DNA of 64,000 nt, taken from IMG/VR virus record IMGVR_UViG_3300030385_002649, positions 62,001 through 126,000 of that record. One strand, 5' to 3'. How positions within the stretch are numbered: position 1 is the stretch's first letter; every line of letters begins with the position of its first letter. Positions 19,318 to 43,948 of the stretch are shown in pieces. The notes beneath the pieces were generated by a model. It saw only the letters and a program-made list of their open reading frames with translations. It had not been told where the DNA came from and made no database searches. Source of the DNA: a virus. The position numbers and the translations under genes are program-made.

Positions 19318-20619
19318 ATGGACAATGATATCTTAAAGATCGCCAGCATGTTGGGCGAAGACCCAGACGACATCAAGGAGATGGCACTCACTACAGGTGC
19401 CATTCCTGCTGGCCCATTTGGAGACGCTGGCTTCGTTAACAAGAAGAAGTCAAAGGCCAACAAAAAACGGAGCCGCAAAAAGAAGAAATCCGGATCCGAT
19501 AACAAAGAAGGTTCAGTTCTATACTCCGGAATAGAGGACGATAAGCACATCGAAGAGGCTAGCAGAGTAAAGAAACAAGTCGCCGCGCCGACAAGATTGA
19601 TGACTCCAGAAGAGAGAAAAGCGAAAAAGAAACAAGAGGTTAACCTTCACCTTAAGCAAAAAGCGCAACATCTATCCCCATCCAACATCAGAAGACCAAA
19701 TTCGATCATCTTCAACGGTGGGATCGACGTTAACCCAATGGAGGTTCCTGATTCCACTGAAATGCAAGGAATCAACGCTAGGGTAGAAAAGGCCGAAAGC
19801 TCACTTGGCGAATCATGGAAAAAACTCACTAATATCTTTAACGCCCTAAGACACTTAGAAATGTACGATGGCAAGATCCAGATCTTCGATAAGAACAAGT
19901 GTCACTTTTACAGACAATATCGAATCTTGAATGACATTTATTCCAGCGGACACTCAGCATATGAAGAGGCTCAAAATGAATGGGGCGGAGGGATTTCGCC
20001 GGGTCTAAGCATGCTTCCTCCCGTTAAAGGTTGGAGGGGGATCCACAATTGGAACAAAAACGCACTCGAACGTAGTCGCTACGTCAAGAATTACGTTCGT
20101 CAAATTGCTTACGTCTATTTGAAGCACATTGGTGAAAATGTTCTGATCACTCATATGGGCAGTTGCAGTAAAGCTGACTGTCTGAAATCCAACCACGCTC
20201 ATTTCCTTATTAAAGGATACTGCGATGGTTTCAAAGAGGACGGGCAAGTCTGGAATATGACTAGAGCGGTGAAAAAGGTATTCAAGATCCGCCAGAAAGC
20301 TCTGCAAGACTTCGCAGCTAAGAGAAGGAAGAAAAAGGAAAAACCACCAGCCCCTACTCTGAGCCCAGGAGACCAAGCACGCTATGATGAAGAAATCGCC
20401 ACTCATGGTAGGGTTAGAGGTGGACAAATGGCTTACGTCTTCCAAGACTACTATTATGACCTTATCCACAAGAACGATAAGGATGAGATGCCCGAAGTTG
20501 GCCCAGAAACTGCAGCCAAGCAGGGGCAAGCTCAAGCGCCTAACCCCACACAAGTTGACGAGTGGGCACCTTTTGATATCTCAGGGTATCTAACAGAAGA
20601 CCCGGATTTGTTTATATGA
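19318..20619 (+). CDS. Hypothetical 433-residue protein with TEDPD tags at both ends
   Basis: The protein starts ILKIASMLGEDPDD and ends ISGYLTEDPDLFI, the same short tag that ends two structural-module proteins at 38.5-39.8 kb. Between them are a Lys-rich segment (KKKSKANKKRSRKKKK) and a central domain (FYRQYRILNDIY, HIGENVLITHMGSCSKADC, SNHAHFLIKGYC). No known family seen. The tag suggests it belongs with virion or prohead proteins despite lying 18 kb away. Its stop overlaps the aminotransferase start (ATGA). Confidence 0.7.
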   Translation: MDNDILKIASMLGEDPDDIKEMALTTGAIPAGPFGDAGFVNKKKSKANKKRSRKKKKSGSDNKEGSVLYSGIEDDKHIEEASRVKKQVAAPTRLMTPEERKAKKKQEVNLHLKQKAQHLSPSNIRRPNSIIFNGGIDVNPMEVPDSTEMQGINARVEKAESSLGESWKKLTNIFNALRHLEMYDGKIQIFDKNKCHFYRQYRILNDIYSSGHSAYEEAQNEWGGGISPGLSMLPPVKGWRGIHNWNKNALERSRYVKNYVRQIAYVYLKHIGENVLITHMGSCSKADCLKSNHAHFLIKGYCDGFKEDGQVWNMTRAVKKVFKIRQKALQDFAAKRRKKKEKPPAPTLSPGDQARYDEEIATHGRVRGGQMAYVFQDYYYDLIHKNDKDEMPEVGPETAAKQGQAQAPNPTQVDEWAPFDISGYLTEDPDLFI

Positions 20620-22218: not shown

Positions 22219-22235
22219 ATAGCACCTAGATATTT

Positions 22236-23522: not shown

Positions 23523-23530
23523 GGTTCTCC

Positions 23531-25033: not shown

Positions 25034-25310
25034 CGTCTTCCTCTTTTTCGATAATTTTTAGAAACCCAATTTTGTGAGCTATTGCTGCCCACAGCTGATC
25101 ACATATTGGTGCATGTGCGACCTCTTGGTATTTCCCGGTTTTAATGTCTTTTCTTAGGGTTTTTAGGTCTAGAACGTTCTTAACTGAACGAGTTACTAGA
25201 ACGTTCTCTTCTTTTTCCACCCAGCCTTTGGGTGTTTCTACAGCGAAATGTCTCCCGTTTCGTTTTACAACTAGTAGGGAGATAGGTTTTGTGAACACCC
25301 ATTCTTTCAT
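25023..25310 (-). CDS. Hypothetical 95-residue protein
   Basis: A small alpha/beta protein (KPISLLVVKRNGRHFAVETP) with an acidic tail (EKEEDDET). It lies between the DUF4254-like gene (which ends at 25311, next to its ATG) and malate synthase (11-base overlap), so it is part of the same operon. No family recognised. Confidence 0.6.
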   Translation of the reverse strand: MKEWVFTKPISLLVVKRNGRHFAVETPKGWVEKEENVLVTRSVKNVLDLKTLRKDIKTGKYQEVAHAPICDQLWAAIAHKIGFLKIIEKEEDDET

Positions 25311-25751
25311 TTAGTAATTCTTCCATTTAGGCTGGTAGAGCTTTTTTTTCTCCTCTTCAGTCATAGAGAGTTGTTCGACGTTGAGCTTGTCGATTTCGTC
25401 CATTAGTTGGTTACGCTGAAGGTTGAGGTCGCACGCTCTTTTTAAAATATGGCGGACACGATCTGGGTCATCTCCAAATTCTTCAGCCCACTCGTCCGGG
25501 GTCATTCTGCGAAACCTGTAGAGGTCGTCTTGAGCGTGCCACATTCTTACAGTAACAATTGAAAGTTTGTCAGTTAAGGAGCCAATTGTGTCCATTTCTT
25601 CCCTCTTGCCTTCTAATTCTACCGGGTTGCACGGGCTGTCATTGAACAAATTATGTAGAGTGGAATGAAACCACTCTACAAGGTGCTCGGAGTCTAATTT
25701 TTTAACTGCTGCGCTCTCAGCGCGCTCTGCCAAAATTGAGTAGTTTAACAT
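25311..25751 (-). CDS. DUF4254-like protein
   Basis: The 146-residue helical protein has the features of DUF4254: TIGSLTDKLSIVTVRMWHAQ followed by DDLYRFR, and a later segment LKRACDLNLQRNQLMDEID. DUF4254 genes often sit beside surface-polysaccharide glycosyltransferases, consistent with this island. It is the first gene of the minus-strand aceB-aceA operon. The identification is by eye and needs a profile search to confirm. Confidence 0.6.
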   Translation of the reverse strand: MLNYSILAERAESAAVKKLDSEHLVEWFHSTLHNLFNDSPCNPVELEGKREEMDTIGSLTDKLSIVTVRMWHAQDDLYRFRRMTPDEWAEEFGDDPDRVRHILKRACDLNLQRNQLMDEIDKLNVEQLSMTEEEKKKLYQPKWKNY

Positions 25752-25769
25752 TAGGACAACCAGTATCTG

Positions 25770-26438
25770 ATGGCTATGAAATCAGAATCTAAGATATTTA
25801 TTCTCGGTTCGAGTGGGTTCGCCCATGAAATTAAGGACTATTTCTTAGAGTATTACAGAGCTAAGAGACCGAAGGGGCAAATAGCGGACCTTTACGTTAA
25901 TCATGTTGGGTTGCACGAACCTGAGTTCTATTTTGTTGGTCCTGACGGCATGTCTGTGAAAGAATATCACGCGGCCCTAAATGCCAGTCTGTCCAAGCCT
26001 ACCTTCTCTATTATGGGGTCTGGCAAGTGTTCTGTTAAGATTAAAATGCTAGAAGAGATTAGGGGACATATTATTAGTATGGTGCACCCTACCTCGCATG
26101 TTATTTCCGCTAAGATCGGTTCTGGGAGCATCATTGCCCCCGGAAGCGTGGTAGCCCCTAGAGCGGTGGTCGGAGACCATTGTCTTGTAAATTACAACGC
26201 CACAATCGGCCATGATGCTATTGTTGGAGATCTATCTGTTGTGTCTCCTAACGCGTCTATCGGAGGATCTTGTGTGCTGGGTCGCGGTGTCCATATTGGT
26301 TCTAATGCTTCGGTACGAGAAGGATTAAAAATTGGTGAAGGCGCAACGGTGGGTATGGGAGCGGTAGTAATTAAAGATGTCCCCTCTGGTGTAACCGTCG
26401 TTGGCGTGCCCGCTAGAACACTTATAAAGGAGAATTAA
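25770..26438 (+). CDS. NeuD/PglD-type sugar acyltransferase
   Basis: The 222-residue protein has an N-terminal Rossmann-like half (FILGSSGFAHEIKDYF) and a left-handed beta-helix of hexapeptide repeats (IGSGSIIAPGSVVAPRAVVG, VGDLSVVSPNASIGG, IGEGATVGMGAVV). This is the NeuD/PglD layout; they acetylate amino sugars or sialic acids using acetyl-CoA. It begins 18 bases from a divergent gene. It fits the neighbouring aminotransferase and CMP-ulosonate genes. Confidence 0.85.
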   Translation: MAMKSESKIFILGSSGFAHEIKDYFLEYYRAKRPKGQIADLYVNHVGLHEPEFYFVGPDGMSVKEYHAALNASLSKPTFSIMGSGKCSVKIKMLEEIRGHIISMVHPTSHVISAKIGSGSIIAPGSVVAPRAVVGDHCLVNYNATIGHDAIVGDLSVVSPNASIGGSCVLGRGVHIGSNASVREGLKIGEGATVGMGAVVIKDVPSGVTVVGVPARTLIKEN

Positions 26439-26663
26439 ATGAGTGACGAGGAAACTGTTGTTGAAGTTGATAAGTTGGCCGGAACAAAGCTCGGAGAGCT
26501 ACGTGATTTGGTCGCTAGTTTAGAAGAGGATTACCTCAAGGGTTGCGCAGGCGTTAAGACAGCCGCACGACGAGTAAGAAAAGGAGTCCAAAGCTTGGAC
26601 ACTATGCGTTCTGACATTCGTACCGAGCTTTTGTCCGCTATGAAGAAAGACAAAGAAGATTAA
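26439..26663 (+). CDS. Histone H1-like Hc1-type small protein
   Basis: The 74-residue helical protein has LGELRDLVASLEEDYLKG, then GVKTAARRVRKGVQSLDTM and IRTELLSAMKK. This closely resembles the Hc1 (PF07432-type) histone H1-like family of bacteria, which compacts DNA; here the basic region is short and the C-terminal repeats are missing. It could organise phage DNA. The start has an AAGGAG site and abuts the NeuD stop. Confidence 0.7.
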   Translation: MSDEETVVEVDKLAGTKLGELRDLVASLEEDYLKGCAGVKTAARRVRKGVQSLDTMRSDIRTELLSAMKKDKED

Positions 26664-27273
26664 CCTTCTACCTTACATAACTCCTGCGCTCAGTTTAGAA
26701 GACTCCATTGCTATAGTGGGTTCTAGTGGGAGACTGCTAGAAACCGATTTTGGTGATAGAATCGACAAATACGCAGAAATAGTAAGGTTTAATAGAGCCC
26801 CCGTAGAGGGCTGGGAAGCAAAAGTCGGATCTAAAACGACCCTAAGAGTTCTGAATAGGCCGACTTTTGCTTCTGCTCCCCTTCTTCGCTGGTCCGACGA
26901 CATTGAGTTCGCTAAAAAGATAAAAGATTCTAGGATCCTTGTTGGCGCTCATACTCAAGGTCTAGTAAAAGCAAGAGACAAATACGTTGACCCTAGTAAC
27001 GAATTATATGTGTTTAACCACGGAAAAGTGGTACAAGCCGCCCATAAAGCGAAATACATATTGACATCACCAACCATTGGATTCCAAATCGTCTTTCTGC
27101 TAGTTGCAGCAGGATTGAAACCCCACTTGTATGGTTTCGATTTTGAAGAAGGACGACCAAGAGACCATTATTGGCACGAACGACCACCTGGCTCTTGGTC
27201 TCACAATTTAGAAGCCGAAATGAAAGTAATGAGGGACCTAGTCTCCAAAGGAAAGGTTAATTTAATCCAATGA
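26659..27273 (+). CDS. GT29 sialyltransferase-like glycosyltransferase
   Basis: The reading frame is open from 26644, but no ATG lies before the conserved core. GTG 26716 would give 185 residues and cut the first beta strand (SIAIV), so ATT 26659 or another non-standard start is possible. The core shows an L-type sialylmotif (IAIVGSSGRLLETDFGDRI, then VRFNRAP and VGSKTT) and an S-type motif (SPTIGFQIVFLLVAAGLK, YGFDF, with HYWH and a terminal SHNLEAE). This is the eukaryote-like GT29 fold, which uses CMP-activated acidic sugars. It is 1.0 kb from the CMP-ulosonate synthesis genes, so it is the likely transferase for that sugar. Only a few bacterial or phage examples are known to me. Confidence 0.72.
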   Translation: MNLLPYITPALSLEDSIAIVGSSGRLLETDFGDRIDKYAEIVRFNRAPVEGWEAKVGSKTTLRVLNRPTFASAPLLRWSDDIEFAKKIKDSRILVGAHTQGLVKARDKYVDPSNELYVFNHGKVVQAAHKAKYILTSPTIGFQIVFLLVAAGLKPHLYGFDFEEGRPRDHYWHERPPGSWSHNLEAEMKVMRDLVSKGKVNLIQ

Positions 27274-27671
27274 AGAAATTTCTAATCGCGGCTCTCGCCG
27301 CCATGTGCATCGGCACTCTCACTATAGCAGCAACGTCCCCCTCAAGGAGCGGCGCACGAAGTAGTGGTGCCGTTGATGTAGCACAAATTGCCAGCAATTG
27401 TGTTGTTACTGGCCTCATATCAGGCCCTAAAATCAAGCACAGCGCTATTGTTAACGATACGATCATATGGCAAGGAAAAATTTATGCCGTTGACGCCAAA
27501 ACCGGAAAGATCCGTGCATGGCTTAAAAGCGATAAGAAAGCTCGTACAACATCTGTCGAATTGACAAACGTTTCAGGGAAAAAAGCAACTTTTATCGTCA
27601 CGGAAAGGTTTAAAGACGACTTCGTGATCAATCATTTTTTTCATAAAGTTATTAAGCGGTCAAAACGATAA
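27270..27671 (+). CDS. Secreted hypothetical protein
   Basis: The 133-residue product has a Sec signal peptide (KKFLIAALAAMCIGTLTIAA) and a small beta-rich domain (CVVTGLISGPKIKHSAIVND, ATFIVTERF). The start overlaps the GT29 stop (ATGA). It is probably periplasmic or exported. Function unknown. It converges with the methyltransferase gene over 20 bases. Confidence 0.65.
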   Translation: MKKFLIAALAAMCIGTLTIAATSPSRSGARSSGAVDVAQIASNCVVTGLISGPKIKHSAIVNDTIIWQGKIYAVDAKTGKIRAWLKSDKKARTTSVELTNVSGKKATFIVTERFKDDFVINHFFHKVIKRSKR

Positions 27672-28272
27672 AAGCGATTTTCTGGCCGCTGGCTGGAGCG
27701 ATAGATTCTTTCCAGTAAGTTATCTTATGCTCTGGCAGAGCTTCTTTAATTTGTTTTCGGCCAAGATGTAAACCATTAAGATAATTGCGAGCAGCGAAAT
27801 AATTCTTGCTCTCAACGACTTTATCGGCTAACTTAATCTGGATAGCGATATGCTTGGGTGAAAGTTCCCTCCACTTTTGGGACACTTTCACCCAATATTC
27901 GTATGAAGGAAAGTGCTGGATTACGGAATAGCACAAAATCAGGTCGATCTTGTCCTCGACTTCAACATCTTCGGGGTTTCCGACATGTATCGTCTTGCAT
28001 TCCTTGCCTATAAAACGTTGAGCCTCAGTTAAACTAGCCTCACTAATATCCACAAGAGTGACATCAAAATGTTGAGAAAGCTCTTTAGCCAAAAGACCGC
28101 CGCCACAGCCCCAGTCCAAGGCAGTTTTAACTTCATCAAGATCAATCTGACTCAATACGTGAGATCTAACCCTATTGATGTGATCAGCAACCTTTTTCAT
28201 GGGCATGTGATCCACAAAGTGCTTATGGTTTAGGGTGACTTTAGTGTCCCAGTGTTTTCTTAGTTTATCCAT
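27652..28272 (-). CDS. Class I SAM-dependent methyltransferase
   Basis: The 206-residue protein has the SAM-binding motif I (ALDWGCGGGLLA), motif II-like (VTLVDISEASL) and motif IV-like (ILCYSVIQHFP). The substrate is not defined by sequence. Its ATG overlaps the CMP-ulosonate cytidylyltransferase stop by 8 bases, so it may methylate the acidic sugar or its product. Confidence 0.8.
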   Translation of the reverse strand: MDKLRKHWDTKVTLNHKHFVDHMPMKKVADHINRVRSHVLSQIDLDEVKTALDWGCGGGLLAKELSQHFDVTLVDISEASLTEAQRFIGKECKTIHVGNPEDVEVEDKIDLILCYSVIQHFPSYEYWVKVSQKWRELSPKHIAIQIKLADKVVESKNYFAARNYLNGLHLGRKQIKEALPEHKITYWKESIAPASGQKIAFIVLTA

Positions 28273-28951
28273 TTAATATTAGCTCAGCAATCTTAAAATC
28301 TAGTAAAGTGTCGATATCGACAGAATCTTCTATAGGCATGTGGTAGTTCGCTACTCTACCTTTAAAGAAATTACGGTCTCTGATGAATGATTCCATTCTA
28401 CGCAAATAGATCGCACCGTTTGGCCTTATAACTGAAGAATGGTCTTGAGACCTAGTGTTTCCAGTTATAAAAGGCAAAGACTGGTCGGAACAATGAACGA
28501 AACCGTCTGGATCAACTACAAGCCCTAAAGTTGGTGGAAATTCATAGTCCGTTGTACTAATAACTCCGTCTAAACTAGGGTCTTCCTCTAACAAAGCCAT
28601 GGCATCCATCACATCCACTTGACCTCGAAACGGAGCAGTGGGAAGAAACAATCCAACAACATCGTAATCATTGTACTCTTGAGATGCGACAAGATTGATA
28701 ACAGTTTCAAGGACCGTCGACTTATCTCCTGATAAAGCAGCGCTACGCTTTAAAGGAGTAACCCCTTCTATAGATCCTCCTACTTTTAGAATGTCGTCAG
28801 AGTCTGATGTTAGGATGACCGTGTGCGCTTCATCAACGACGGCCTCTAGGGTCCACTGAATTAGCGGCTTTCCTCCTAGAGGCCGGATGTTTTTGCCGGG
28901 CAACCTTTTTGACCCACCTCGGGCGGGCACTATTGCTAGGAGCTTAACCAT
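28265..28951 (-). CDS. CMP-acyl-ulosonate cytidylyltransferase (NeuA/KdsB superfamily)
   Basis: The 228-residue enzyme starts LLAIVPARGGSKRLPGKN with the cytidylyltransferase signature, then GGKPLIQWTL. It is more like NeuA (CMP-sialate or related 3-deoxy-ulosonate) than KdsB, whose signature is PARYASTRLPGKP. It activates an eight- or nine-carbon acidic sugar with CTP. It overlaps kdsA by 16 bases upstream, so the two are one unit. The sugar is either Kdo or a related ulosonate. Confidence 0.85.
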   Translation of the reverse strand: MVKLLAIVPARGGSKRLPGKNIRPLGGKPLIQWTLEAVVDEAHTVILTSDSDDILKVGGSIEGVTPLKRSAALSGDKSTVLETVINLVASQEYNDYDVVGLFLPTAPFRGQVDVMDAMALLEEDPSLDGVISTTDYEFPPTLGLVVDPDGFVHCSDQSLPFITGNTRSQDHSSVIRPNGAIYLRRMESFIRDRNFFKGRVANYHMPIEDSVDIDTLLDFKIAELILNG

Positions 28952-29730
28952 TTCTGTGTTGCCAAAACCTTTTCAACTTCATCATAAGTCTTTATTAGAT
29001 TTTCGACTTTATCCAGGTACAACTGGCAGTCTCCATCAGAAACAGCCTTCCGAGGCTCCGGGTGGCATTCAGCGAAAATACCGCTATACTCATAAGCGAG
29101 AGAAGCGATCATATACTTAGCGGCAAGTTCTCTGTCCCCACCGGTAAAATCGCCCTTTTTGCGTTGAGTAGAGTGGGTGCAATCTAGGATCACTCTATCA
29201 TAGTGCTTCGACATTTCTTCGGCAGCGCCAAAATCAACGATTAATTGATTATACCCAAAGAACGTACCTCTTTCAGTGATCCAAACTTCACAGTCAGGGT
29301 TCTCGGCTTTTACCTTGCCAACAAAGTGTTTCGTGCTGTCCGGATTAATCCATTGGCCCTTCTTGATGTTCACCTTGTCGAAGCATTTTCCGGACTCGAT
29401 TAGAAGGTCGGTTTGGCGGCACAGAAAGGCTGGGATCTGGCATAGTTCGACGCCTTGGTCGGCAATGAGCTTAGCTTGATGACACTCGTGGATGTCCGTG
29501 GTCAGTCTAATTCCTGGAAACTCTTCTCGGACTTTTTCCATTAATCGGAGGGACTCGTCGATACCAGGACCCCTACCTCCATCAACTGCGGTTCTGTTGG
29601 CCTTGTCGAAAGAAGCTTTGTAGTACCAGTCTCTCCCATCCATGAACTTGGTTAGTTCTTCGGCACACTTCAAGTAAAGATGCTCGTTTTCCATGGAGCA
29701 TGGCCCCAAAATCCAGACTTTATCCGACAT
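28936..29730 (-). CDS. kdsA: 3-deoxy-8-phosphooctulonate synthase (KdsA), metal-dependent type
   Basis: I chose the start MSDKVWILGPC at 29730, which gives 264 residues; an upstream in-frame ATG would add 11. The enzyme condenses arabinose 5-phosphate with PEP to Kdo-8-phosphate. Blocks: GPCSMENE with Cys11, KASFDKANRT, GPGIDESLRL, TTDIHE, QIPAFLCRQTDLL, VNIKKGQW and ITERGTFFGY. Cys11 in the GPC position is the metal ligand of class II KDO8P synthases; metal-independent enzymes have Asn there. The C-terminal metal ligands His and Asp also appear (AECHPEP). It overlaps the aldolase gene by 11 bases. Confidence 0.9.
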   Translation of the reverse strand: MSDKVWILGPCSMENEHLYLKCAEELTKFMDGRDWYYKASFDKANRTAVDGGRGPGIDESLRLMEKVREEFPGIRLTTDIHECHQAKLIADQGVELCQIPAFLCRQTDLLIESGKCFDKVNIKKGQWINPDSTKHFVGKVKAENPDCEVWITERGTFFGYNQLIVDFGAAEEMSKHYDRVILDCTHSTQRKKGDFTGGDRELAAKYMIASLAYEYSGIFAECHPEPRKAVSDGDCQLYLDKVENLIKTYDEVEKVLATQKWLSS

Positions 29731-30637
29731 ATGAATCCCATCTTCTTTCAATATCATCAACAACGCCTCTTACTCTGAGTTGTTGTTCTCTTGTAACTTC
29801 GCTAAAAGGCGCCCTATTTTCAGTAGGCAGCAATTGTTTATAATTTAGAGCGGATTGCAACGCTTTATGCCATCCGATTTTCTTGAACACATTAAACAAA
29901 GGTTCTTCAAATTTAGTAACAATGTCGTGTGCTACCGCCAAATCACCAGCCGTAAACTCTTCCAAAAACCGGTCTTCAATTTCAGGAAAAATGTTTCCAA
30001 TCCCGCCAAGGAAAGTCTGCGCACCAGCGGGCCCTGTCAGCAAGAATCTCCTGCAGCTACCGCCAGCGGGGAAGATGAGAAAATCATCATCGGCCAATCT
30101 AGAAACATCATAGGCGAGCGCGAGCTTAGAACTTTCCTCTTTCATGCCTATGATGTTAGGGTGTTTTTTCAGTTTTTCGACTATTTGTGGTGTATAATCG
30201 TACATGCCGCCTAGAGCGTGTCGCATAAACATTCCGTGAATCATAACTGGCACTTCAGAACGGTCAGCGGCCCAATAGAAGTAATTCACAACGCTTTCAT
30301 CGTCGTAATACCTGTCAGGATAAAACAGGAGAATCGCATCTGGCTTGATTGCGTTAGCGAACTCTAGTTCTCTAGATAAGTGTTTGTTAGCTAATGGCGG
30401 GAGACCCATAATGAACGAACCTTGAAACTCTGAGCATAGCTCGTTCATTTCTTGGAGTTCAAATTCGTCCAGCAAGTTAAATCTTGTAGTTCCGGCTGTT
30501 GTTAGGATTGTTTTGGCTCCTTCTCTGTGAAGGTAATTGAGGTATCCTTTTATAGAGGCGCTGGACAATTCCCTTTCGCTAAATGCGGGGGGAATTGGAT
30601 ATATAACGCCTTCGCTCAATTTTTCAATGTTGGACAT
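29720..30637 (-). CDS. DapA/NanA-type class I aldolase
   Basis: This 305-residue TIM-barrel enzyme forms a Schiff base at Lys166 in NIIGMKEES. GTTRFNLLDEFE near 50 is the altered GTTGE loop. The conserved YN after the strand near residue 133 (as in PxLLYN) is replaced here by IH (VPVMIHGMF), so a catalytic Tyr seems to be missing. N-acetylneuraminate lyase or a 2-keto-3-deoxy aldolase is plausible. It is co-transcribed with KdsA and a HAD phosphatase, so it may make or remove a pathway intermediate. Confidence 0.72.
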   Translation of the reverse strand: MSNIEKLSEGVIYPIPPAFSERELSSASIKGYLNYLHREGAKTILTTAGTTRFNLLDEFELQEMNELCSEFQGSFIMGLPPLANKHLSRELEFANAIKPDAILLFYPDRYYDDESVVNYFYWAADRSEVPVMIHGMFMRHALGGMYDYTPQIVEKLKKHPNIIGMKEESSKLALAYDVSRLADDDFLIFPAGGSCRRFLLTGPAGAQTFLGGIGNIFPEIEDRFLEEFTAGDLAVAHDIVTKFEEPLFNVFKKIGWHKALQSALNYKQLLPTENRAPFSEVTREQQLRVRGVVDDIERRWDSYVG

Positions 30638-31082
30638 GAGTAGCGATCACCTTTGAAACCGTCTTGGCAACTTTAATGTTTTCAAGTTTGTCATCGTAAA
30701 AGTAAATCTCATCGTATTCTTCGCTGGCGCACTTTTGAAGGACCTCAAGTTTCTTTTGAGGCACGTCTTCTCTTGTTCCTAGTCCTACGAGAATGTCGAA
30801 TAGATTTCCTTTTTTGTTTTCCGCTAGCCAGTAGGCAATTTGTTTAGCGCTTCGCCCAGATAGGATCATGTTATCACCCATTTTGCTGGTTGCGGCTACT
30901 TGTTTCCACATTTTTTGATACGGTTTGCATAAGTCCGCAACTTTGTATCCTATATCGCTATCAGCGAAACATAGGGCACCGGCTTTCGCCTCGTCCATCC
31001 AATCGTTCTCAATCAACACATCGTGAGTATTGACAAGGGTGTCATCGAAATCATATACATACAATCTTGATTTTGGATCCAT
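30624..31082 (-). CDS. HAD-family phosphatase
   Basis: The 152-residue protein has nucleophile motif DFDDTLV (Asp11, Asp13), the motif II-like MILSGRS and motif IV FYDDKLENI. HAD phosphatases of this compact size include KdsC (Kdo-8-P phosphatase) and nucleic-acid repair phosphatases (Swiss-army-knife or PNKP type). Since it is the first gene of the kdsA unit, KdsC-like function is an attractive guess, but the sequence alone does not separate the two. It overlaps the aldolase gene by 14 bases. Confidence 0.75.
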   Translation of the reverse strand: MDPKSRLYVYDFDDTLVNTHDVLIENDWMDEAKAGALCFADSDIGYKVADLCKPYQKMWKQVAATSKMGDNMILSGRSAKQIAYWLAENKKGNLFDILVGLGTREDVPQKKLEVLQKCASEEYDEIYFYDDKLENIKVAKTVSKVIATHVQH

Positions 31083-31136
31083 AAACTAAATACTCAGGAA
31101 ACACGCAAAGTTAAATTAAACCCCTAAAGAGGACAC

Positions 31137-31973
31137 ATGAAAATTTCAGTAGGAATGCTAGTCGTCAACGGACGCCCCTTCATTGAAGCGCAACTGAAAA
31201 ACCTATACGACATCGCACACGAAATCGTAATCTGCGAAGGAGGAGACAAGTTCTGGCATGCCAGACATGGTTATTGGAGATCCACAGACGGCACAATAGA
31301 CATTATCAAAAACTTCCCAGACCCGGACAAAAAGATTAAACTGATCCAAAAGAATTGGAAAAACAAAAACGAAATGTCCCACACCTTCAGCGAAGGCATG
31401 ACAGGAGACATAATTTATAGCGTAGACTTAGACGAATTCATGAACCCAACCGAACTAGTGGCAGTGTGCAAAAAACTCATGACACAGCCATTCACTTCAG
31501 TCACAATCCCACATTACGTCTTTTATGGAGATTTCGAAACTCTAATGGCAATGGAGCATTCACCAACATGGGTGCAAGTACCACGCATCTTCAAAAGACA
31601 AAAGAATTCATTGATCCATCATCTCCCAATGGCATATTGGAACATGACAACAAAAACACCATACAACCCTAAGAAAATGCCCCACAAAATGGTACCAGAC
31701 GTGTTCATCTACCACTATTCTTGGGTGTATCGCAAATCCGTCAGAGACAAAATCGCATATTACGCTCATCGCATTCCTGGTTGCATTAGAAAAGACTGGC
31801 TAGACAAATACTTCGAAGACTTCGCCAGCAAAAAAGACGCTCTTCTAAAATCCAAAGAGAACATCAGACCAACAGAAGGCGCAAAACAGTTCTTGCTACC
31901 ATTTAAAGGGAAACACCCAGAAATCGTTTCTGAAATTCAGAAGGATATAGCGCTACTTGACGCGGTAAAGTGA
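31137..31973 (+). CDS. GT2-like glycosyltransferase
   Basis: The 278-residue protein starts ISVGMLVVNG, an early GT-A strand, with a metal site IIYSVDLDEFM (DLD as the DxD). The C-terminal half has several aromatic residues (YHYSWVYRKSVRDKIAYY). Its codon usage favours A-ending codons (CCA, ACA, CAA) more than neighbours, suggesting separate origin. It probably adds a sugar to surface glycan. Divergent from the HAD gene by 54 bases. Confidence 0.75.
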   Translation: MKISVGMLVVNGRPFIEAQLKNLYDIAHEIVICEGGDKFWHARHGYWRSTDGTIDIIKNFPDPDKKIKLIQKNWKNKNEMSHTFSEGMTGDIIYSVDLDEFMNPTELVAVCKKLMTQPFTSVTIPHYVFYGDFETLMAMEHSPTWVQVPRIFKRQKNSLIHHLPMAYWNMTTKTPYNPKKMPHKMVPDVFIYHYSWVYRKSVRDKIAYYAHRIPGCIRKDWLDKYFEDFASKKDALLKSKENIRPTEGAKQFLLPFKGKHPEIVSEIQKDIALLDAVK

Positions 31974-33122
31974 TAATTTCCTGCCGCCAGGATAACTGCT
32001 AATTCGTTTCACCAATTCTAAGCCATGCTTGATTAACGCCTTTTCATAAACCTCGGCTGTGTTTATATCCTCTAAGATTAAGAACTTCTTGGTAAGGTTA
32101 GCTAACAGCTTGGCAAATATTTCATGCTTAAATGTTATATGGTGCACAATCGCTAAAGCAATCACAAGTTCAGAAGAGTATCTCTCGATTTCACGATACT
32201 CATTTCTAATAAGCCTTTCGATGTCAGAATAAACAAACGTTGCCGGAAGACTCTTATCAAATCCGTCAGCGTCGTCAATGCAAGGTTCAACATAATCGAA
32301 ACCAACCGCTGATTCTACGCCGCCCTGCTGTTTATCAATAGCCAAGAAAGTGTAATACCCCTTATTACAAGCGACATCAGTTACAGTTTTGTACTCTAAC
32401 TCATCCAATAAATCAGAGACTATCTTAGCCTTTGGATTAACTTTCTCAGGATGTTTCACATCCATGATGTTAGAGTAGTTGTTGTACCAATGGTTTTTCT
32501 TCTGAGGAAGTTTAATCGTCTTAACCCAAGTTAACAATTCATCCCAAAACTCTTTACTTTGGCAATTTCCTTTATAGCGCTTGTGATGGTTAGCTAACCA
32601 TCCGCCGTGGCCGTTGACTGATTTTCCATTATATTTCGAGTATCCACCTTGGACATCTTTCTTAAAAACATAACTGTTGATGATATACGCCAGTTTTACA
32701 AAAGAATAAGAAGCATAATTCGAGTCAATTTCAGCAACCGCATTGTAGTCTAACCAAACAAATTCGCCTCTTGAGTAAGCTATGTTGCCTTCATGAATAT
32801 CAAATAAGACGATTCCTTTCTTCAATAACTCTACGTTCATCTCACAAAGGCCAACCACTATCTTGAGAGATTGCTTACATGTCAATTCTTGGATTTTTAT
32901 TAAGTGTTCAATTATAGGATGCTCAATGACAGTCCTTAATTCTTTACCCCATCTTAATTTGATGTCAGTTTTTGAATATGGTTGAGTGTATTTGCAGGAG
33001 CTAATAGCGTCTAAAAACTGCAGTTCTCTACTCTGTAAACCCCTGTACAGTTTCTCTTTGTGGTAAAACAGTGTCGATGAAGAATCAGGGTGTCTTTTAA
33101 TGTCTTTTTTAGTAAGGATCAT
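31953..33122 (-). CDS. Kinase-methyltransferase fusion (WbdD-like)
   Basis: The 389-residue protein has an N-terminal protein-kinase-like half with a catalytic loop LLKKGIVLFDIHEGNIAY (Asp and Asn) and WLDYNAV (DFG-like Asp), and a C-terminal SAM methyltransferase half (TVTDVACNKGYYTFLA as motif I, VGFDYVE, ALAIVHHITF). A related fusion, with the methyltransferase first, is WbdD, which caps O-antigen chains by adding phosphate then methyl. Here the order is reversed. It could terminate a surface polysaccharide. It is next to a GT2 gene (14-base overlap). Confidence 0.7.
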   Translation of the reverse strand: MILTKKDIKRHPDSSSTLFYHKEKLYRGLQSRELQFLDAISSCKYTQPYSKTDIKLRWGKELRTVIEHPIIEHLIKIQELTCKQSLKIVVGLCEMNVELLKKGIVLFDIHEGNIAYSRGEFVWLDYNAVAEIDSNYASYSFVKLAYIINSYVFKKDVQGGYSKYNGKSVNGHGGWLANHHKRYKGNCQSKEFWDELLTWVKTIKLPQKKNHWYNNYSNIMDVKHPEKVNPKAKIVSDLLDELEYKTVTDVACNKGYYTFLAIDKQQGGVESAVGFDYVEPCIDDADGFDKSLPATFVYSDIERLIRNEYREIERYSSELVIALAIVHHITFKHEIFAKLLANLTKKFLILEDINTAEVYEKALIKHGLELVKRISSYPGGRKLSLYRVK

Positions 33123-33792
33123 TTTTCAGCTTTTTCATCGTTTTTTTATCTTTAACTCTATATTTGGCATTGCGCTCTAAACTAGATTGCCTATTAGCAT
33201 ATATTCCGAGAAACTTAGGAATATGACCCCAAGAGATATCACCAGCAGCTAGTTTAGTCCAAAATAGGGCATCTCCATATATTTCAAGTCTCTCCTCAAA
33301 AAAGCCAAATTCATCGTGAAGGCTCTTCCTCCACATGGGGAAAGGACCTAGCCCATTTCCTGGTGAGTACCCTTCATCTGAACACTTATAATAGTCATGA
33401 GCGGCTTTGTACCCTTCTTGCCATGTTGGTTTATAAGCGGAAAGTTTGTAGTCGAAGTAAGCAATGTCGGATCCTTCGTCCATTTTTTCAACTTGTGCCT
33501 TATATCCATTTGGGTGCACATAGTCATCAGTATTAGCTTGAACAACATAAGGAGTGTCTGCTAATCTTATGCCAAGGTTCATGGCTGCCCACACCGAGAT
33601 TCTCTCGTTAATAATGACTTTAACAAATTGCGGGGTGTTTGTTATATTCTCTACTAGCTTTAGTTCTTTTCCTCCTGTACAATCGATCAATATGATTTTT
33701 ATTGGCACAGCGGATTCTAGTAGGTTTAATATCTTATTTCTGATGAATTTGTCAGAATTGTAAATAGAAACAATCGCTGTGGCTTTATACAT
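33109..33792 (-). CDS. GT2-family glycosyltransferase
   Basis: The 227-residue GT-A enzyme has ATAIVSIYNSDKFI at the start, AAMNLGIRLADTPYVVQANT near the middle, and the metal-binding DDY in NTDDYVHPNG. Later FGFFEERLEIYGD fits a GT2 acceptor-side motif. It is the first gene of the minus-strand pair with the kinase-methyltransferase. It starts 23 bases from a divergent gene, so the promoter must be within the upstream gene region or shared. Confidence 0.82.
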   Translation of the reverse strand: MYKATAIVSIYNSDKFIRNKILNLLESAVPIKIILIDCTGGKELKLVENITNTPQFVKVIINERISVWAAMNLGIRLADTPYVVQANTDDYVHPNGYKAQVEKMDEGSDIAYFDYKLSAYKPTWQEGYKAAHDYYKCSDEGYSPGNGLGPFPMWRKSLHDEFGFFEERLEIYGDALFWTKLAAGDISWGHIPKFLGIYANRQSSLERNAKYRVKDKKTMKKLKNDPY

Positions 33793-33815
33793 AGTGGTCT
33801 ACCAATAAATATTTT

Positions 33816-34646
33816 ATGAAAAAGGCTGTCATCGCTATATTTCACGGTCTTGGGGATTGCATAAACGCAACTTCCATAATTAAGCCCCTGAAAGCTAAAC
33901 ACCCAAACTGCGAAATAACGTGGGTTAGTTCTAAGGCTTACTTGCCAATAGTTGAACACAACCCTCTAATTGCACACACTGAAGGTATCCCCGGAAACGT
34001 TTGGGCCGCTGACGAGCAATACAAAAACCTCAGGAAAAAACACGGAAAGTCGCTAATAGTTCCAGCCCCATATCTCAACTCATTAGCGCAAGACAAAACC
34101 CTATTGGGCTCATACAAAGAACGGATTAAAGTGATAACTGGTGGGAAAAACCTCAATTTCACGCCTGAACCGTTATTGTTTTTAACCCCTAAAGAAGTAA
34201 AAGACGTGGACGATTGGCTAGAGGAACGGAAAATAGAAAAATTCGTAATGCTTGAGGCTATTTTCACATCCAGTCAATCATTTTGGGGTAGAGCCCATAC
34301 CGATGAAGCATTAAGAATTTGCGCTGCCAAAGGCTATACTGTATTAATGACGCACAGAGAAGACGTCAACTTACATGAATATAATAAAATATGTCCAACA
34401 TTTTGTTTAGACGTTGGTTTTAGATATATGCCAGCTTTCTACAACAAATCGTCTGGTTTCATAGGGGTTAGTAGTGGTATAACGTGCGTTGTTCATACGC
34501 ACCAGTGCCGAAAAAATATACCACACCTTGAATTTGTAAGCGGAGAGCACTGGTGCACCCGTCATTACGTCAAGAAAAACAAAGTGATCAGCTTTGACAA
34601 AAAAGTTGAATCTGTAGGAAAGCTGATACAAGAGAGAATTAAATGA
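33816..34646 (+). CDS. GT9-like (heptosyltransferase fold) glycosyltransferase
   Basis: The 276-residue GT-B protein starts AVIAIFHGLGDCINATSIIK, a GT9 N-terminal motif with a Gly-Asp-Cys loop, and ends with GFIGVSSGITCVVHT, the family's donor-site Gly/Ser motif. GT9 enzymes include LPS heptosyltransferases. A second GT9-like gene lies 0.6 kb further on. It should modify a core-like surface sugar. The stop overlaps the next start (ATGA). Confidence 0.75.
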   Translation: MKKAVIAIFHGLGDCINATSIIKPLKAKHPNCEITWVSSKAYLPIVEHNPLIAHTEGIPGNVWAADEQYKNLRKKHGKSLIVPAPYLNSLAQDKTLLGSYKERIKVITGGKNLNFTPEPLLFLTPKEVKDVDDWLEERKIEKFVMLEAIFTSSQSFWGRAHTDEALRICAAKGYTVLMTHREDVNLHEYNKICPTFCLDVGFRYMPAFYNKSSGFIGVSSGITCVVHTHQCRKNIPHLEFVSGEHWCTRHYVKKNKVISFDKKVESVGKLIQERIK

Positions 34647-35209
34647 GCCTAGAAATTGAACCGTTTGTGGAGACCAAGGATATCATCTTTAAAGGAGACG
34701 ACCCTCTTTATTTTAAAGATGATTTGAAGAGGAAATACTATAATTTCTATTTCAGTTATGGAAGGCACTTCAAACCAAGAAATATCTTCGAAATCGGAGT
34801 CAGAACAGGCTACACTGCGTATTTCTTGCTTCTAGGGTCCAAGGCTGAAAAGTTCAGAGGCATCGACCTAGAAACCTACAAAGTGAACTCTAGTCAATTG
34901 GCTATCGGGTTAATCCGAAAAGTATGCGAAGACAGTAGCGTTGCGATTGGCGATAGCCACAAGTTGACGGCTCTAGATGAGGCTTATGATCTTGTCCATA
35001 TTGATGGTGACCACAGTTATGACGGAAAGGTCCAAGACCTAGAACTTGCCTTTGGCAGCTTGAGTCCAGACGGAGTCATCGTTGTGGATGATTACAACCC
35101 TAATCTTGGCATTGAAGTTAAGAGAGCAACTGATGATTTCGCTAAAAAACATGACCTAAAGGTTACCGTTTTACCAACCTTTACCGGCCACGCGCTACTC
35201 CAGAGGTAA
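34643..35209 (+). CDS. SAM-dependent methyltransferase (Methyltransf_24-like)
   Basis: The 188-residue enzyme has FEIGVRTGYTAYFLLLG as the SAM motif, FRGIDLE as the acidic strand 2 and DLVHIDGDHSYDG as the metal-site motif of sugar or antibiotic O-methyltransferases. It lies between two GT9-like genes, so a sugar methylation role is likely. It ends 2 bases before the next ATG. Confidence 0.8.
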   Translation: MSLEIEPFVETKDIIFKGDDPLYFKDDLKRKYYNFYFSYGRHFKPRNIFEIGVRTGYTAYFLLLGSKAEKFRGIDLETYKVNSSQLAIGLIRKVCEDSSVAIGDSHKLTALDEAYDLVHIDGDHSYDGKVQDLELAFGSLSPDGVIVVDDYNPNLGIEVKRATDDFAKKHDLKVTVLPTFTGHALLQR

Positions 35210-35211
35210 GA

Positions 35212-36144
35212 ATGCAATCGAAAATTTATCCAATAGCTAACTTTCCAAACTGGAAGGCAGCTTGTGACGCAGCCCACAAATGGCTACGTGAAAGTGGTAA
35301 AGAAACCACTCTTCTTTTCGAACAAAACAGAAATCTAGGGGACACTCTACATTTAACGCCAATCATACGGCATTATAGGTTAGAAAACCCAGACGCCGCT
35401 ATTGTTTTCCTAGTAGGTAGACCATATTCTGGCGCTCACGAGTTTAATCCGGATATTGATAAAATCTTTTGTGTTCCAGTTCTTAAACCTAAAGACAGGG
35501 TTGCGCTCCGAAAACACATTATTAGTTTCAAGGATGTTACGAAGGTGATTGCTCCATCTATTTTCCCGTATGCTGACATTTGGAAAGAATTATCTTGGTC
35601 ATATGCTGACATTGCTAGTCAATATTTTGCAAACGCTGAAATTGAAGGCATTGAACCGAAAGGTGGTCGCAACTTGATTGTGAAAATCACGGATGCGGAC
35701 CGAAAATGGGCTAAAGGTTTCATGAAGAGGCATAACTTAAAAAGGAAAACCTCTTGTGTTTTAGAGTATAACTCTTATTCCGCTCAGCCTGTTTGGCGTG
35801 CGCCGAAGTTTACTAAATTTGTACAACATGCCAAGAAACATGGCATTAAGTGCATCAGCATTGCTGGTAAGAAAGAGAAAGCTATTCCTGGTACGATTGA
35901 CGCTACTGGTATTTCTTGGCGTCAATCGGTCGCTCTATTCAATGAAGTTGGTAGTTTTATTGGTGTTGGTTCGGGTCTTACGATGCTAGCTGCATCTGCT
36001 GATAATTCACCTAACATTCTGGAGATCGCAGTAGATGACCCAGTAAATATGAACGGTTGCGGCTATGCTACTAGCATCAAGATACTCAATCCTGATCCTG
36101 TCAACGTCGCTGATCATTTATGGTTTAAGGTACTAAATGGCTAA
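35212..36144 (+). CDS. GT9-like glycosyltransferase
   Basis: The 310-residue protein has LLFEQNRNLGDTLHLTPII, a GT9 N-terminal motif (Gly-Asp-x-Leu-His), and ends with FIGVGSGLTMLAASAD, the donor-site motif. It is a second GT9-like enzyme in the cluster, with a longer N-terminal lead. It overlaps the next gene by 8 bases. Confidence 0.75.
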   Translation: MQSKIYPIANFPNWKAACDAAHKWLRESGKETTLLFEQNRNLGDTLHLTPIIRHYRLENPDAAIVFLVGRPYSGAHEFNPDIDKIFCVPVLKPKDRVALRKHIISFKDVTKVIAPSIFPYADIWKELSWSYADIASQYFANAEIEGIEPKGGRNLIVKITDADRKWAKGFMKRHNLKRKTSCVLEYNSYSAQPVWRAPKFTKFVQHAKKHGIKCISIAGKKEKAIPGTIDATGISWRQSVALFNEVGSFIGVGSGLTMLAASADNSPNILEIAVDDPVNMNGCGYATSIKILNPDPVNVADHLWFKVLNG

Positions 36145-38200: not shown

Positions 38201-38535
38201 TGCTAATAATCGTATACGCTAGAATAATCGACAACAAGAAGAACGGTCTAGAGATGGAAGGGCCATTCCTTGGTCCGGAGTCTTCGACTATGGAAGAAGC
38301 ACATGCTCATTGCTCAGATCTAGTGACTGAAAGCAAGAATCATACTATTGTTCGTATTTATAACTTGGATGAGTTTAGCGAAAAGGGCGCTTTGGAAAAG
38401 GCCACCGAAAGCTTTGATAAGATCTATTCGGATATGCAACGAGCTTCTCGTATTATTGAGAAGCCCATTATTAAACGAAAAAGAAAAAAGAAGATTGTCG
38501 CTAGTACGCCTAGCGTTGTTCCCCAAAAAAGTTAA
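38200..38535 (+). CDS. Hypothetical 111-residue protein
   Basis: An alpha/beta protein (IIVYARIIDNKKNG, HTIVRIYNLDEF) with a basic tail (KRKRKKKIVAS). It starts in TAATG with dut. It converges on the structural module with a 26-base overlap. No family recognised. Confidence 0.6.
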   Translation: MLIIVYARIIDNKKNGLEMEGPFLGPESSTMEEAHAHCSDLVTESKNHTIVRIYNLDEFSEKGALEKATESFDKIYSDMQRASRIIEKPIIKRKRKKKIVASTPSVVPQKS

Positions 38536-39277
38536 TATCTTCCGAAATTAACCTTGCGATGCTGGTTATGTTCCTGGAAATACTCTCGAATTCGATCTCT
38601 TCCTCTTGGGGCATGAGATCTTCTTCTGGTTGAGCAGGACCGGGTTCCCCACCTGGTGGTGGTTCTAGGTCGTCTAGACCTTCTCCGTCATCTGGTGCTG
38701 GCTCTTCTGGGAGTCCTAGATTTTCATCATCCACACCAAGTTCTCCCATGTCTGGGAGTGCGTCTTCTTCTTCCTCTGGTGGTTCTTCGACTTTGTCGAT
38801 TTTAACCACTGTGATCATTGGAAGAATGTCTTTACGCTTAATTTTAGAGTTAGGCCCGACGTCAATCTTTTGGTGACTAACTTCGAGACCTAACTCTCCA
38901 CGCACAGCATTGCCGAATTCTTTGTTCATGGCTTGGTAAAGGTTAACCTTTAGCTCATGCTCAAATTTATGCCTTATCTCTTGGTCTTCTAATTGCTTAG
39001 ATAGACGTTGTGCGAGGTCGCGCTGCTGTTGGATGTCGGGACAATGTAAGGATACGTTTTTGATGATGAAACCTGGTGGAATGAGCTTAACGGTCAGTCT
39101 CTTGATATCAAGCTCGCATCCATTGTCCTCGGCCACCTTTTTTAGAAGCCCGACCACATTATAGTAGTCGGACAATTCTAAACAGGATTCCCTTTTCCAG
39201 GCATCTGAGTACGCAGACATAACATTAGGATCCTCTGTTAAGAGTACAGCGATTTCCCTAATTTTATTATCTGCCAC
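38510..39277 (-). CDS. Structural-module protein with tags at both ends
   Basis: The 255-residue protein begins IREIAVLLTEDPNVMSAY and ends ITSIARLISEDINFFGEQR, two copies of the module's short tag. The centre is alpha/beta (LTVKLIPPGFIIKNV) and the tail is acidic and Pro-rich (EEPPEEEEDALPD, PGGEPGPAQPEED). A capsid, prohead core or scaffold role is suggested by the tag but not shown. Confidence 0.65.
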   Translation of the reverse strand: MADNKIREIAVLLTEDPNVMSAYSDAWKRESCLELSDYYNVVGLLKKVAEDNGCELDIKRLTVKLIPPGFIIKNVSLHCPDIQQQRDLAQRLSKQLEDQEIRHKFEHELKVNLYQAMNKEFGNAVRGELGLEVSHQKIDVGPNSKIKRKDILPMITVVKIDKVEEPPEEEEDALPDMGELGVDDENLGLPEEPAPDDGEGLDDLEPPPGGEPGPAQPEEDLMPQEEEIEFESISRNITSIARLISEDINFFGEQR

Positions 39278-39288
39278 AGATGGTTCCC

Positions 39289-39783
39289 TTATCTGCGCCT
39301 GCGAGGACGAGGACGACGACCGCTAAAGACATCTGGGTCTTCAGTCAGTAAGTTAGCGATGCGATTGACGCTTTCGCCATAACATTCGCCAGCAACTTCT
39401 TCGCCACCGCCGAAGTCATCAAGACCTTCCTCAGTGTCATCGAGGTCGAGTGCTGCGTCTCCGTCAGCTTCTAGACCACCCATTTCGTCTCCGCCGAGAT
39501 CAAGGCCACCTTCGTCGCCTCCACCAGCTAGAGCGCCCCAGGCACTATCTACTGCACTCATGACTGCGTCTTCGAACTCTTGGCGAGTACACGTTACGCT
39601 TTCTTCTTCTTCGGCTCCGAGGTCGTCGCCCATGTCACCCATCTCTTCGTCTCCGCCGAGATCGAGGCCGCCTTCGTCGCCTCCGAGGTCCATGTCGTCG
39701 TCGCCTTCGTCGCCCATGTCTAGATCGAAATCATCGTCCATTTCATTCATAGGTCCCATTCCGATACCGCCCATTCCAGTCAT
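39289..39783 (-). CDS. Acidic Gly/Asp-rich protein with basic tail
   Basis: The 164-residue product is mostly Asp/Gly/Glu/Met (repeats such as DLGGDEGGLDLGGDE) and ends VNRIANLLTEDPDVFSG then RRPRPRRRR. The acidic body and basic end suggest a scaffold or assembly chaperone that is later removed. It carries the same tag as its neighbour. Confidence 0.65.
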   Translation of the reverse strand: MTGMGGIGMGPMNEMDDDFDLDMGDEGDDDMDLGGDEGGLDLGGDEEMGDMGDDLGAEEEESVTCTRQEFEDAVMSAVDSAWGALAGGGDEGGLDLGGDEMGGLEADGDAALDLDDTEEGLDDFGGGEEVAGECYGESVNRIANLLTEDPDVFSGRRPRPRRRR

Positions 39784-42681: not shown

Positions 42682-42881
42682 TACTTAGACTTACCCTTCT
42701 TCTTTTTTTTCTCGCCTTGAATGACGTTTAAGAACCTATCACGATCTTCATGACCACCTTTTAAGTGGCTCAAATTGCTTCGGCCCTTAACTTTAGGCTT
42801 GGCTTTACCTTTTGGATCCCCGTAGAAATCTTCTGAGGATTGGATGACATCGAGATCTTCGTACAACTTATTTAATTTCAT
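42681..42881 (-). CDS. Small MKLNKLY-start protein
   Basis: I chose ATG 42881, which overlaps the previous stop (ATGA) and gives 66 residues, over a farther upstream ATG. It begins MKLNKLYEDLD and ends in a Lys-rich tail (GEKKKKKGKSK). The N-terminal motif is shared with the genes at 43948 and 60720. Function unknown. Confidence 0.65.
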   Translation of the reverse strand: MKLNKLYEDLDVIQSSEDFYGDPKGKAKPKVKGRSNLSHLKGGHEDRDRFLNVIQGEKKKKKGKSK

Positions 42882-43948
42882 CCTGGGTACTTGAACTGTT
42901 CCTTGAGTGGAACGCAAGTTCCCCTTCTTTCGTCAACAATAGCGGCACCAGCTGGTTCTTTGCTATTGTAACGGTTCTTAGATTCATTGAAAGCGCCAAG
43001 GTTTTTCTTGCGCCCACTTGGAACGTCCGTCCAACCGCATTCAACCATAGTTACGCCAGGCTTGTTTCCAGCGTCCTTCATGTCAGCCTCGATGAGGCCC
43101 TCATTAGAATCAACGGACATCATGTCAAGACCAAGGCCACCGCTACCCTGCGTTTTCAATCGGTTAATGTCATCGACAGAGATTTCTAGTTTATGCCTAA
43201 GATCACGATCAGTAACGATCATATACTTGAGAGGCTTTCTTCCAGAATCACCGGCTTTAATGTGTGACATGAGACCAAGAGCACCATTTACTGAATCGGA
43301 GATCCCAAAAGAGATTGTTGGTTGTACTCTTCTTTCTGGAGACCATCCCTCATGGTGGAAACCTTGACCAGCCAGAGTGTTGGACATTAGAATACAACGT
43401 TTAATAACGTCAGCGAAAATCCTCTGTGCCCTATCCTTGTCCGTATCACCCACATAGACGCTGACGGCGAATGTATCACCACCCAATCGGTAACACTCTG
43501 CTCTACTTGAACCGCCAAATTGGCTAGTGATGAGGTTTCCGATATATCCAATGACTGAATTGACTCCAATAGTTCCTAGACCGCTCTTTTCGTTAAGGTG
43601 CCTAGCATCGTCAACGTCGCCAACAACATAAATGAAGTTTTTCAGACCGTTTTCGTTGACATCATCGCTCGCCTCAGCATGCAGGGCCTTGAAAACGTGC
43701 CCGCCCTTTAAGCCAGTTACCACGTCTTTTTCTACTAGGTCTCTTAGCTCTTTATAAGCACTACCCGGGTTAGACTTGGACAAATCGTCTAGTCTTTCTA
43801 ATTCCTCGCACATATTGATGGCTAGGGAATTTTCTACTGGCCTATGTCCTGATACCGGTGGGTACCTGATAGGGTCTAAAGGAAGGTCTGAACTTTCTTT
43901 TAGTACTCCTCGGTAGCTTCTCTTGCCGTATAGGTCTTCTAATTTCAT
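42878..43948 (-). CDS. GGDEF-like domain protein in the structural module
   Basis: The 356-residue product starts MKLEDLYGKR. Residues about 105-190 look like a GGDEF domain: FIYVVGDVDDARHLNE (DxDxx..xN), a helix, then YRLGGDTFAVSVY with GGDTF in place of GGDEF at 156-160. The signature Glu is Thr, so diguanylate cyclase activity is doubtful, but the fold and GTP or c-di-GMP binding may remain. A GGDEF-like domain among phage structural genes is unusual. The last 150 residues are not recognised. Confidence 0.65.
   Translation of the reverse strand: MKLEDLYGKRSYRGVLKESSDLPLDPIRYPPVSGHRPVENSLAINMCEELERLDDLSKSNPGSAYKELRDLVEKDVVTGLKGGHVFKALHAEASDDVNENGLKNFIYVVGDVDDARHLNEKSGLGTIGVNSVIGYIGNLITSQFGGSSRAECYRLGGDTFAVSVYVGDTDKDRAQRIFADVIKRCILMSNTLAGQGFHHEGWSPERRVQPTISFGISDSVNGALGLMSHIKAGDSGRKPLKYMIVTDRDLRHKLEISVDDINRLKTQGSGGLGLDMMSVDSNEGLIEADMKDAGNKPGVTMVECGWTDVPSGRKKNLGAFNESKNRYNSKEPAGAAIVDERRGTCVPLKEQFKYPG

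Follow-up and report, generated by a model that had tools for sequence, protein, structure and literature searches.

The internal head proteins of bacteriophage T4 begin with a short capsid targeting sequence (CTS), an N-terminal propeptide of 10-19 residues that can direct foreign proteins to the core of the head; for this, ten residues are enough (PMC9026906; also PMC3012670). The T4 prohead protease gp21 cuts after L/I-X-E; an Asp at position 10 of the CTS blocks processing and still allows targeting, and in the T4 protein Alt both termini undergo processing (PMC9026906; also PMC3012670). The giant phages phiKZ and SPN3US contain many head-internal proteins, which a prohead protease cleaves behind a short x-x-E motif (PMC9026906). 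Here we describe a short peptide tag that recurs at the ends of otherwise unrelated proteins in an uncultured lineage of giant phages with T4-type head genes. A search of the open-access literature yielded no description of a comparable peptide from jumbo phages. We infer that the tag is probably a capsid-targeting (cargo-loading) signal of the T4 CTS kind, and that it may also be cleaved.

The window, a stretch of 64,000 nucleotides, comprises bases 62001-126000 of a 370,804-base IMG/VR virus record, here named G000. The initial annotation had described a motif, IAxLLTEDPDxF, in five copies in three proteins of the window, and all five were found in frame and at the protein ends described (Table 1). 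A scan of the whole record with a profile of these five copies returned the same five (E 1e-10 to 4e-9) and a sixth (G000:C1:210622-210663(-), E = 4e-4); this copy, MNNKFVDYIAKMVTEDPDLLNE, opens a 109-aa disordered-looking protein (MNNKFVDYIAKMVTEDPDLLNEKQ...). G000 has six tag copies in four proteins in total, none of them more than about 20 residues away from a protein end, and no further terminus-near copies were seen in the record. A candidate for a seventh copy, RIADTIAEDVTAVVF, in the 1,106-aa head protein of G000 was dropped, the relatives' versions having no matching stretch, and an extra LTEDP DNA match at G000:244344 was set aside with the rest of the motif missing. Pfam and PHROGs scans of the tagged window proteins gave nothing significant, the 255-aa protein having no PHROG match and no significant Pfam match. 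This protein also had no relatives in viral_contigs, among GenBank phages or in 15 related genomes, and the 433-aa protein had none in viral_contigs. An AlphaFold2 model of the 255-aa protein, made without an alignment, was discarded (mean pLDDT 46).

Table 1. Tagged proteins, tag copies, head genes and other N-terminal peptides. Coordinates are those of the window unless a record is named.
Feature	Coordinates	Strand	Remarks
433-aa protein, tag at both ends	19318..20619	+	N-terminal ILKIASMLGEDPDD, C-terminal ISGYLTEDPDLF
N-terminal tag of 433-aa protein, DNDILKIASMLGEDPDDIKEMA	19321..19386	+	profile E 1.9e-10
C-terminal tag of 433-aa protein, EWAPFDISGYLTEDPDLFI	20560..20616	+	profile E 3.5e-9
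255-aa protein, tag at both ends, middle domain without known family, acidic linker	38510..39277	-	N-terminal IREIAVLLTEDPN, C-terminal ITSIARLISEDINFF
C-terminal tag of 255-aa protein, NITSIARLISEDINFFGEQR	38513..38578	-	profile E 3e-10
N-terminal tag of 255-aa protein, DNKIREIAVLLTEDPNVMSAY	39209..39271	-	profile E 1.7e-10
164-aa acidic, low-complexity protein, C-terminal tag VNRIANLLTEDPDVF	39289..39783	-	
C-terminal tag of 164-aa protein, ESVNRIANLLTEDPDVFSGRR	39313..39378	-	profile E 1.2e-10
T4-type major capsid protein (MCP)	G000 157272-158804	-	
Scaffold-like, repeated VLAES / VLDES / VVSES	G000 158825-159577	-	gene order and sequence reading
Prohead protease, Pfam Peptidase_S77 (PF03420)	G000 159714-160388	-	E 3.8e-20, above curated cut-off
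1,106-aa acidic protein	G000 160431-163748	-	gene order and sequence reading
Portal-like	G000 163790-165739	-	gene order and sequence reading
66-aa protein, start MKLNKLYEDLD (MKLxxL[YH]E)	42684..42881	-	few genes upstream of the tagged pair
356-aa protein, start MKLEDLYG, variant of second peptide	42878..43948	-	E 8e-5; among seed sequences
MKLxxL[YH][ED] copies in window	5996-6061, 42819-42881, 43886-43948, 60655-60720	-	
MKLxxL[YH][ED] copies elsewhere in G000	G000 139578, 188736, 230291, 263917, 334001, 334230		
LSSxQRR...(L/I)(S/A)E form	G000 228614-228949, 276652-277080; G001 143151-143987		

The genes of the 164-aa and 255-aa proteins come after tail genes on the same strand, and near two proteins that open with a different peptide, MKLxxL[YH]E (see below). 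On either side of the tagged 433-aa gene, two lipoprotein-like proteins of 165 and 169 residues with similar ends, probably paralogues, are encoded at 17027-17524(+) and 21709-22218(-) of the window. A gene run at about 20616-36100, judged by eye, resembles surface-sugar biosynthesis and includes a DegT-type aminotransferase, a sugar-nucleotide cytidylyltransferase-like protein (start MVKLLAIVPARGGSKRLPGKN) and glycosyltransferases.

The distribution of the tag was then followed among relatives and in databases. With the five-copy profile, about 18 copies were found in G001 (395 kb), 15 in G005 and one or two each in seven further genomes (G002, G003, G004, G006, G010, G011 and G014), and the tag was absent from six other relatives searched in this way. 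Relatives with the same T4-type MCP use it much more heavily than G000. A strict DNA pattern for IAxxITEDPD matched 41 IMG/VR stretches, several of which held more than one copy, whereas the reversed-peptide control matched four, once each. A search of 257 Gb of bacterial genomes with this pattern gave nine matches, every one internal to an ORF and none at an N-terminus, and a 25-residue consensus gave one weak match only against 50,697 GenBank phage records. On these search results the tag is confined to the uncultured lineage and related-looking contigs. Among 17 further tag-bearing contigs, one had a full MCP (81% identical) and three had short MCP pieces; most of the others were short fragments. 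Three tag-bearing contigs, G019, G021 and G017, contain the major capsid gene in pieces only (L192 2245-17255, L193 10606-11097, L194 8463-9041). In G019 some 14 kb separate the N-terminal and C-terminal pieces, a sign that the gene may be split or contain introns.

An extended profile was used to collect 98 distinct tag copies, 82 of which (about 84%) are N-terminal, six C-terminal and ten internal or unclear. In N-terminal copies the start codon mostly lies 10-13 codons ahead of the T of TEDP. The tag is roughly 15 residues long, with the consensus M-x-[PI]-x-x-I-A-x-[LM]-[IL]-T-[ED]-D-P-D-[VI]-[FL]-x-E, and the extent of the motif first proposed had to be revised: the conserved unit begins earlier and ends later, running from -8 to +8 around the T. 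Column counts over 74 non-redundant N-terminal copies (T = 0) showed P, I or V at -8, I at -5 (64/74), A at -4 (72/74), L, M or F at -2 and I or L at -1 (72/74). From the T on, position 0 is T or S, +1 is E in 60, D in 13 and Y in one of the 74 copies, +2 is D in 72 and +3 is P in all; +4 is D or N, +5 V or I, +6 hydrophobic and +8 E in 35, and background level is reached from +9. The best-conserved residues are I-A...T-[ED]-D-P. Since the strict pattern and the seeds bias these core columns, a seed-free test was made, in which 557 genes predicted in G001 were examined for gapped four-residue words at their N-termini and the counts compared with shuffles. The tag was the sole word to exceed the shuffles, being counted in 14 proteins where shuffles reached 5-6 at most, and DP.V..E, a word containing the +8 Glu, was among the top words (12). 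Occurrence at the rate expected by chance, which the initial annotation had named as speaking against a functional signal, was thus not seen in this test, nor in the 41 stretches against four for the reversed pattern. Across 17 G001 copies all four Pro codons, all four Ala codons and three Thr codons are in use; codons vary freely at conserved residues, and selection therefore acts on the protein.

The genome of G000 contains a T4-type head module (Table 1). The MCP of G000 is at most 40% identical to that of any GenBank phage and 74-90% identical to 80 IMG/VR loci, and the order portal, acidic protein of about 1,000 residues, protease, scaffold and MCP is kept in relatives wherever the sequence suffices. 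Peptidase_S77 exceeds its cut-off also in G001-G006, G026 and the 30-kb fragment G016; it gave no match in the tag-bearing contigs G017, G019, G021 and G032 (81-147 kb), which may be fragments. At the maturation site of the relatives' capsid protein, predicted by position, the sequence is (I/L)-(L/F)-E|D with an invariant Glu, usually followed by Asp. Between portal and protease, nearly all relatives examined encode a protein of about 1,000-1,300 residues, with a conserved N-terminal part of some 430 residues and a long, acidic and fast-changing C-terminal part. We consider this protein (160431-163748 in G000) a candidate core protein and tag receptor.

The tag itself contains putative sites for such a protease. 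At the first, ITE|D, which has the same form as the capsid site, P3 is I or L in 72 and P1 is E in 60 of the 74 non-redundant N-terminal copies; in about 18% P1 is Asp instead. A second candidate site, V-[FL]-x-E|, is often present, and many of the copies with D have it instead. A second hydrophobic-x-E site occurred in 11 of the 14 copies without the first-site Glu, compared to 27 of the 60 with it (Fisher p 0.036, ignoring shared ancestry); we count this association as weak. Three of the 74 copies have neither candidate site. The E/D alternation and the second-site pattern would be compatible with a targeting peptide removed in most but not all cases.

To characterize the tagged proteins, 79 of them were scanned, yielding 18 Pfam and 34 PHROGs families. 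Each listed family was matched by exactly one protein, and the tag is therefore an appendage on unrelated proteins. The domains include a Nudix hydrolase, an AAA ATPase, an AAA_33/polynucleotide-kinase-like domain, an aspartoacylase-like domain together with a C39 peptidase in one protein, and a cyclic-phosphate receiver domain (cREC). A rubrerythrin/ferritin-like protein has the tag at its C-terminus (L161:5348-5722), and a PARP-like match in a tagged protein was weak and below cut-off (E 0.0006). Several tagged ORFs belong to head modules, just upstream of the protease (L043), between protease and scaffold (L035, L036, L066) or downstream of the MCP (L029, L072). Most others are scattered across the genomes outside the head module, in 19 places along G001, and some form tandem paralogue clusters (G005, G021). 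The tagged protein at L066 3690-4856, one of those encoded between protease and scaffold, is made of repeated units of about 30 residues (GRWPEGEE.IKKDPEWAYEYSLNIVK).

Directly supported are the recurrence of the tag, its modularity and terminal position and its conservation at the protein level. The same holds for the presence of genes for a T4-type protease, scaffold and capsid, and for the agreement of the tag with the motif known for this protease in T4. The proposal of a short functional signal holds as far as a modular signal is concerned. Of the roles suggested for it, prohead targeting combined with processing is favoured by the prohead protease in the genome, the L/I-x-E sites in the tag and the tagged genes in the head modules of relatives. 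In such a scheme, a short, probably amphipathic N-terminal peptide of about 12 residues (M-x-P-x-x-I-A-x-L-I-T-E) would form a helix with affinity for the core or scaffold of the prohead during its assembly, and the unrelated proteins attached to it would thereby enter the head as cargo. On N-terminal copies the phage's Peptidase_S77 protease would cut after ITE|D and/or V-[FL]-x-E|, and the freed cargo might be ejected together with the DNA into the next host. The same route may serve copies at the C-terminus, at both ends or inside a protein, and those at both ends could bridge core subunits.

Compared to the CTS of the T4 internal proteins IPI-IPIII, the tag is likewise a short, mostly N-terminal peptide on otherwise unrelated proteins, in which the stretch from Met to hydrophobic-I-T-E spans about a dozen residues. 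Both contain an L/I-x-E site that matches a prohead protease of the Peptidase_S77 type, and both occur together with a T4-type head module with gp20/22/23-type genes. The tolerance of T4 targeting for Asp at the cleavage position is paralleled by the E/D alternation. However, the tag differs in sequence (M-x-P-x-x-I-A-x-L-I-T-E-D-P-D-V), its conservation continues past the scissile bond, it occurs also in C-terminal, double-ended and internal positions and in up to about 18 copies per genome, and it is missing from sequenced GenBank phages save the one weak consensus match. The likeness in sequence, which we take to stop at hydrophobic-I-T-E, is too short to establish homology or kinship by descent. 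If targeting is correctly assigned, the tag would work like the T4 CTS. In Alt the protease removes a peptide from each end, and the 255-aa and 433-aa proteins are tagged at both ends, but here the two end tags resemble each other and no Alt-like domain was found in either protein. Encapsulin and bacterial microcompartment cargo-loading peptides are short, terminal and sort unrelated enzymes into a protein shell, and the C-terminal tag on the ferritin-like protein is reminiscent of them; the shell in question here, in contrast, is of neither kind but a phage head of the T4 type that comes with a maturation protease. The giant phages phiKZ and SPN3US offer a further parallel in their many head-internal proteins processed at x-x-E motifs, but phiKZ cutting follows S/A-x-E and the lineage is a separate one.

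The scatter of most tagged genes outside the head module speaks against capsid targeting and suits a different reading, in which the tag is a docking peptide for a non-capsid partner such as a replication or transcription complex, a membrane, an infection-stage compartment or a host factor. Many tagged genes encode enzymes (Nudix, kinase-like, peptidase) able to act in the infected cell, and N-terminal, C-terminal and internal positions are also found in docking motifs. Owing to this gene placement and these enzymes, docking deserves consideration, but it appears less likely than capsid targeting: L/I-x-E sites are present in the tag and a prohead protease of the T4 type is encoded by the phages concerned, some tagged genes sit between protease and scaffold, and an alternative partner is not indicated. 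Further points against capsid targeting are the conservation of D-P-D-V past the putative scissile bond, beyond the needs of a T4-like cleavage site, the C-terminal copies, which would leave the predicted helix on the cargo, the few N-terminal copies with neither candidate site, and the four contigs, maybe fragments, that gave no S77 match.

A role as prohead-protease cleavage site only, cleavage being among the functions suggested at the outset, would agree with the T4 protease motif L/I-x-E (PMC9026906), with the VLAES, VLDES and VVSES repeats of the scaffold and with (I/L)(L/F)E|D in the MCP. However, about 17 positions are conserved, including I-A at -5/-4 and D-P at +2/+3, both of which are missing from the scaffold and MCP sites. 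Because conservation extends well beyond L/I-x-E and some 18% of the copies have Asp at the first site, cleavage alone cannot be the whole function, and we consider this reading very improbable. Even less credit is due to a translated DNA-level feature, that is, a recombination or regulatory cassette at gene starts. Most copies do lie at gene starts, some of them in the tandem clusters, but the free codon variation and the C-terminal and internal copies argue against it. Chance likeness, conceivable for a short motif, is refuted by the seed-free enrichment, the reversed-pattern control and the wholly internal bacterial matches.

Most proteins of uncultured jumbo phages lack an assigned function. 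Should the tag indeed be a signal for capsid targeting, it would supply a rule, based on sequence, by which the proteins injected by giant phages could be recognized, and the candidate list would already hold Nudix, kinase-like, peptidase, ferritin-like and PARP-like proteins. Such a signal would further offer a label, ready for use, with which proteins could be loaded into large phage heads. More tentatively, a lineage of uncultured T4-type giant phages might possess an address label of its own that differs in sequence from described phage CTS and functions at either end of a protein or within it. With this label each virion would bring a large and rapidly changing set of enzymes and effectors, up to about 20, into the host, and related genomes would swap in other labels.

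Two other recurrent N-terminal peptides were observed. MKLxxL[YH][ED] opens ten G000 proteins, compared to 0.15 expected from shuffles, is nearly absent from the relatives searched and contains L-x-E in most copies; MKLxxL[YH]E may be G000's own label. A third form, LSSxQRR...(L/I)(S/A)E, runs to a hydrophobic-x-E site and occurs in G000 and G001 (MKLSSVQRRRLLSEED, MGRLSSVQRRNNQGLIAEAG, LSSRQRRLLAEAIGED).
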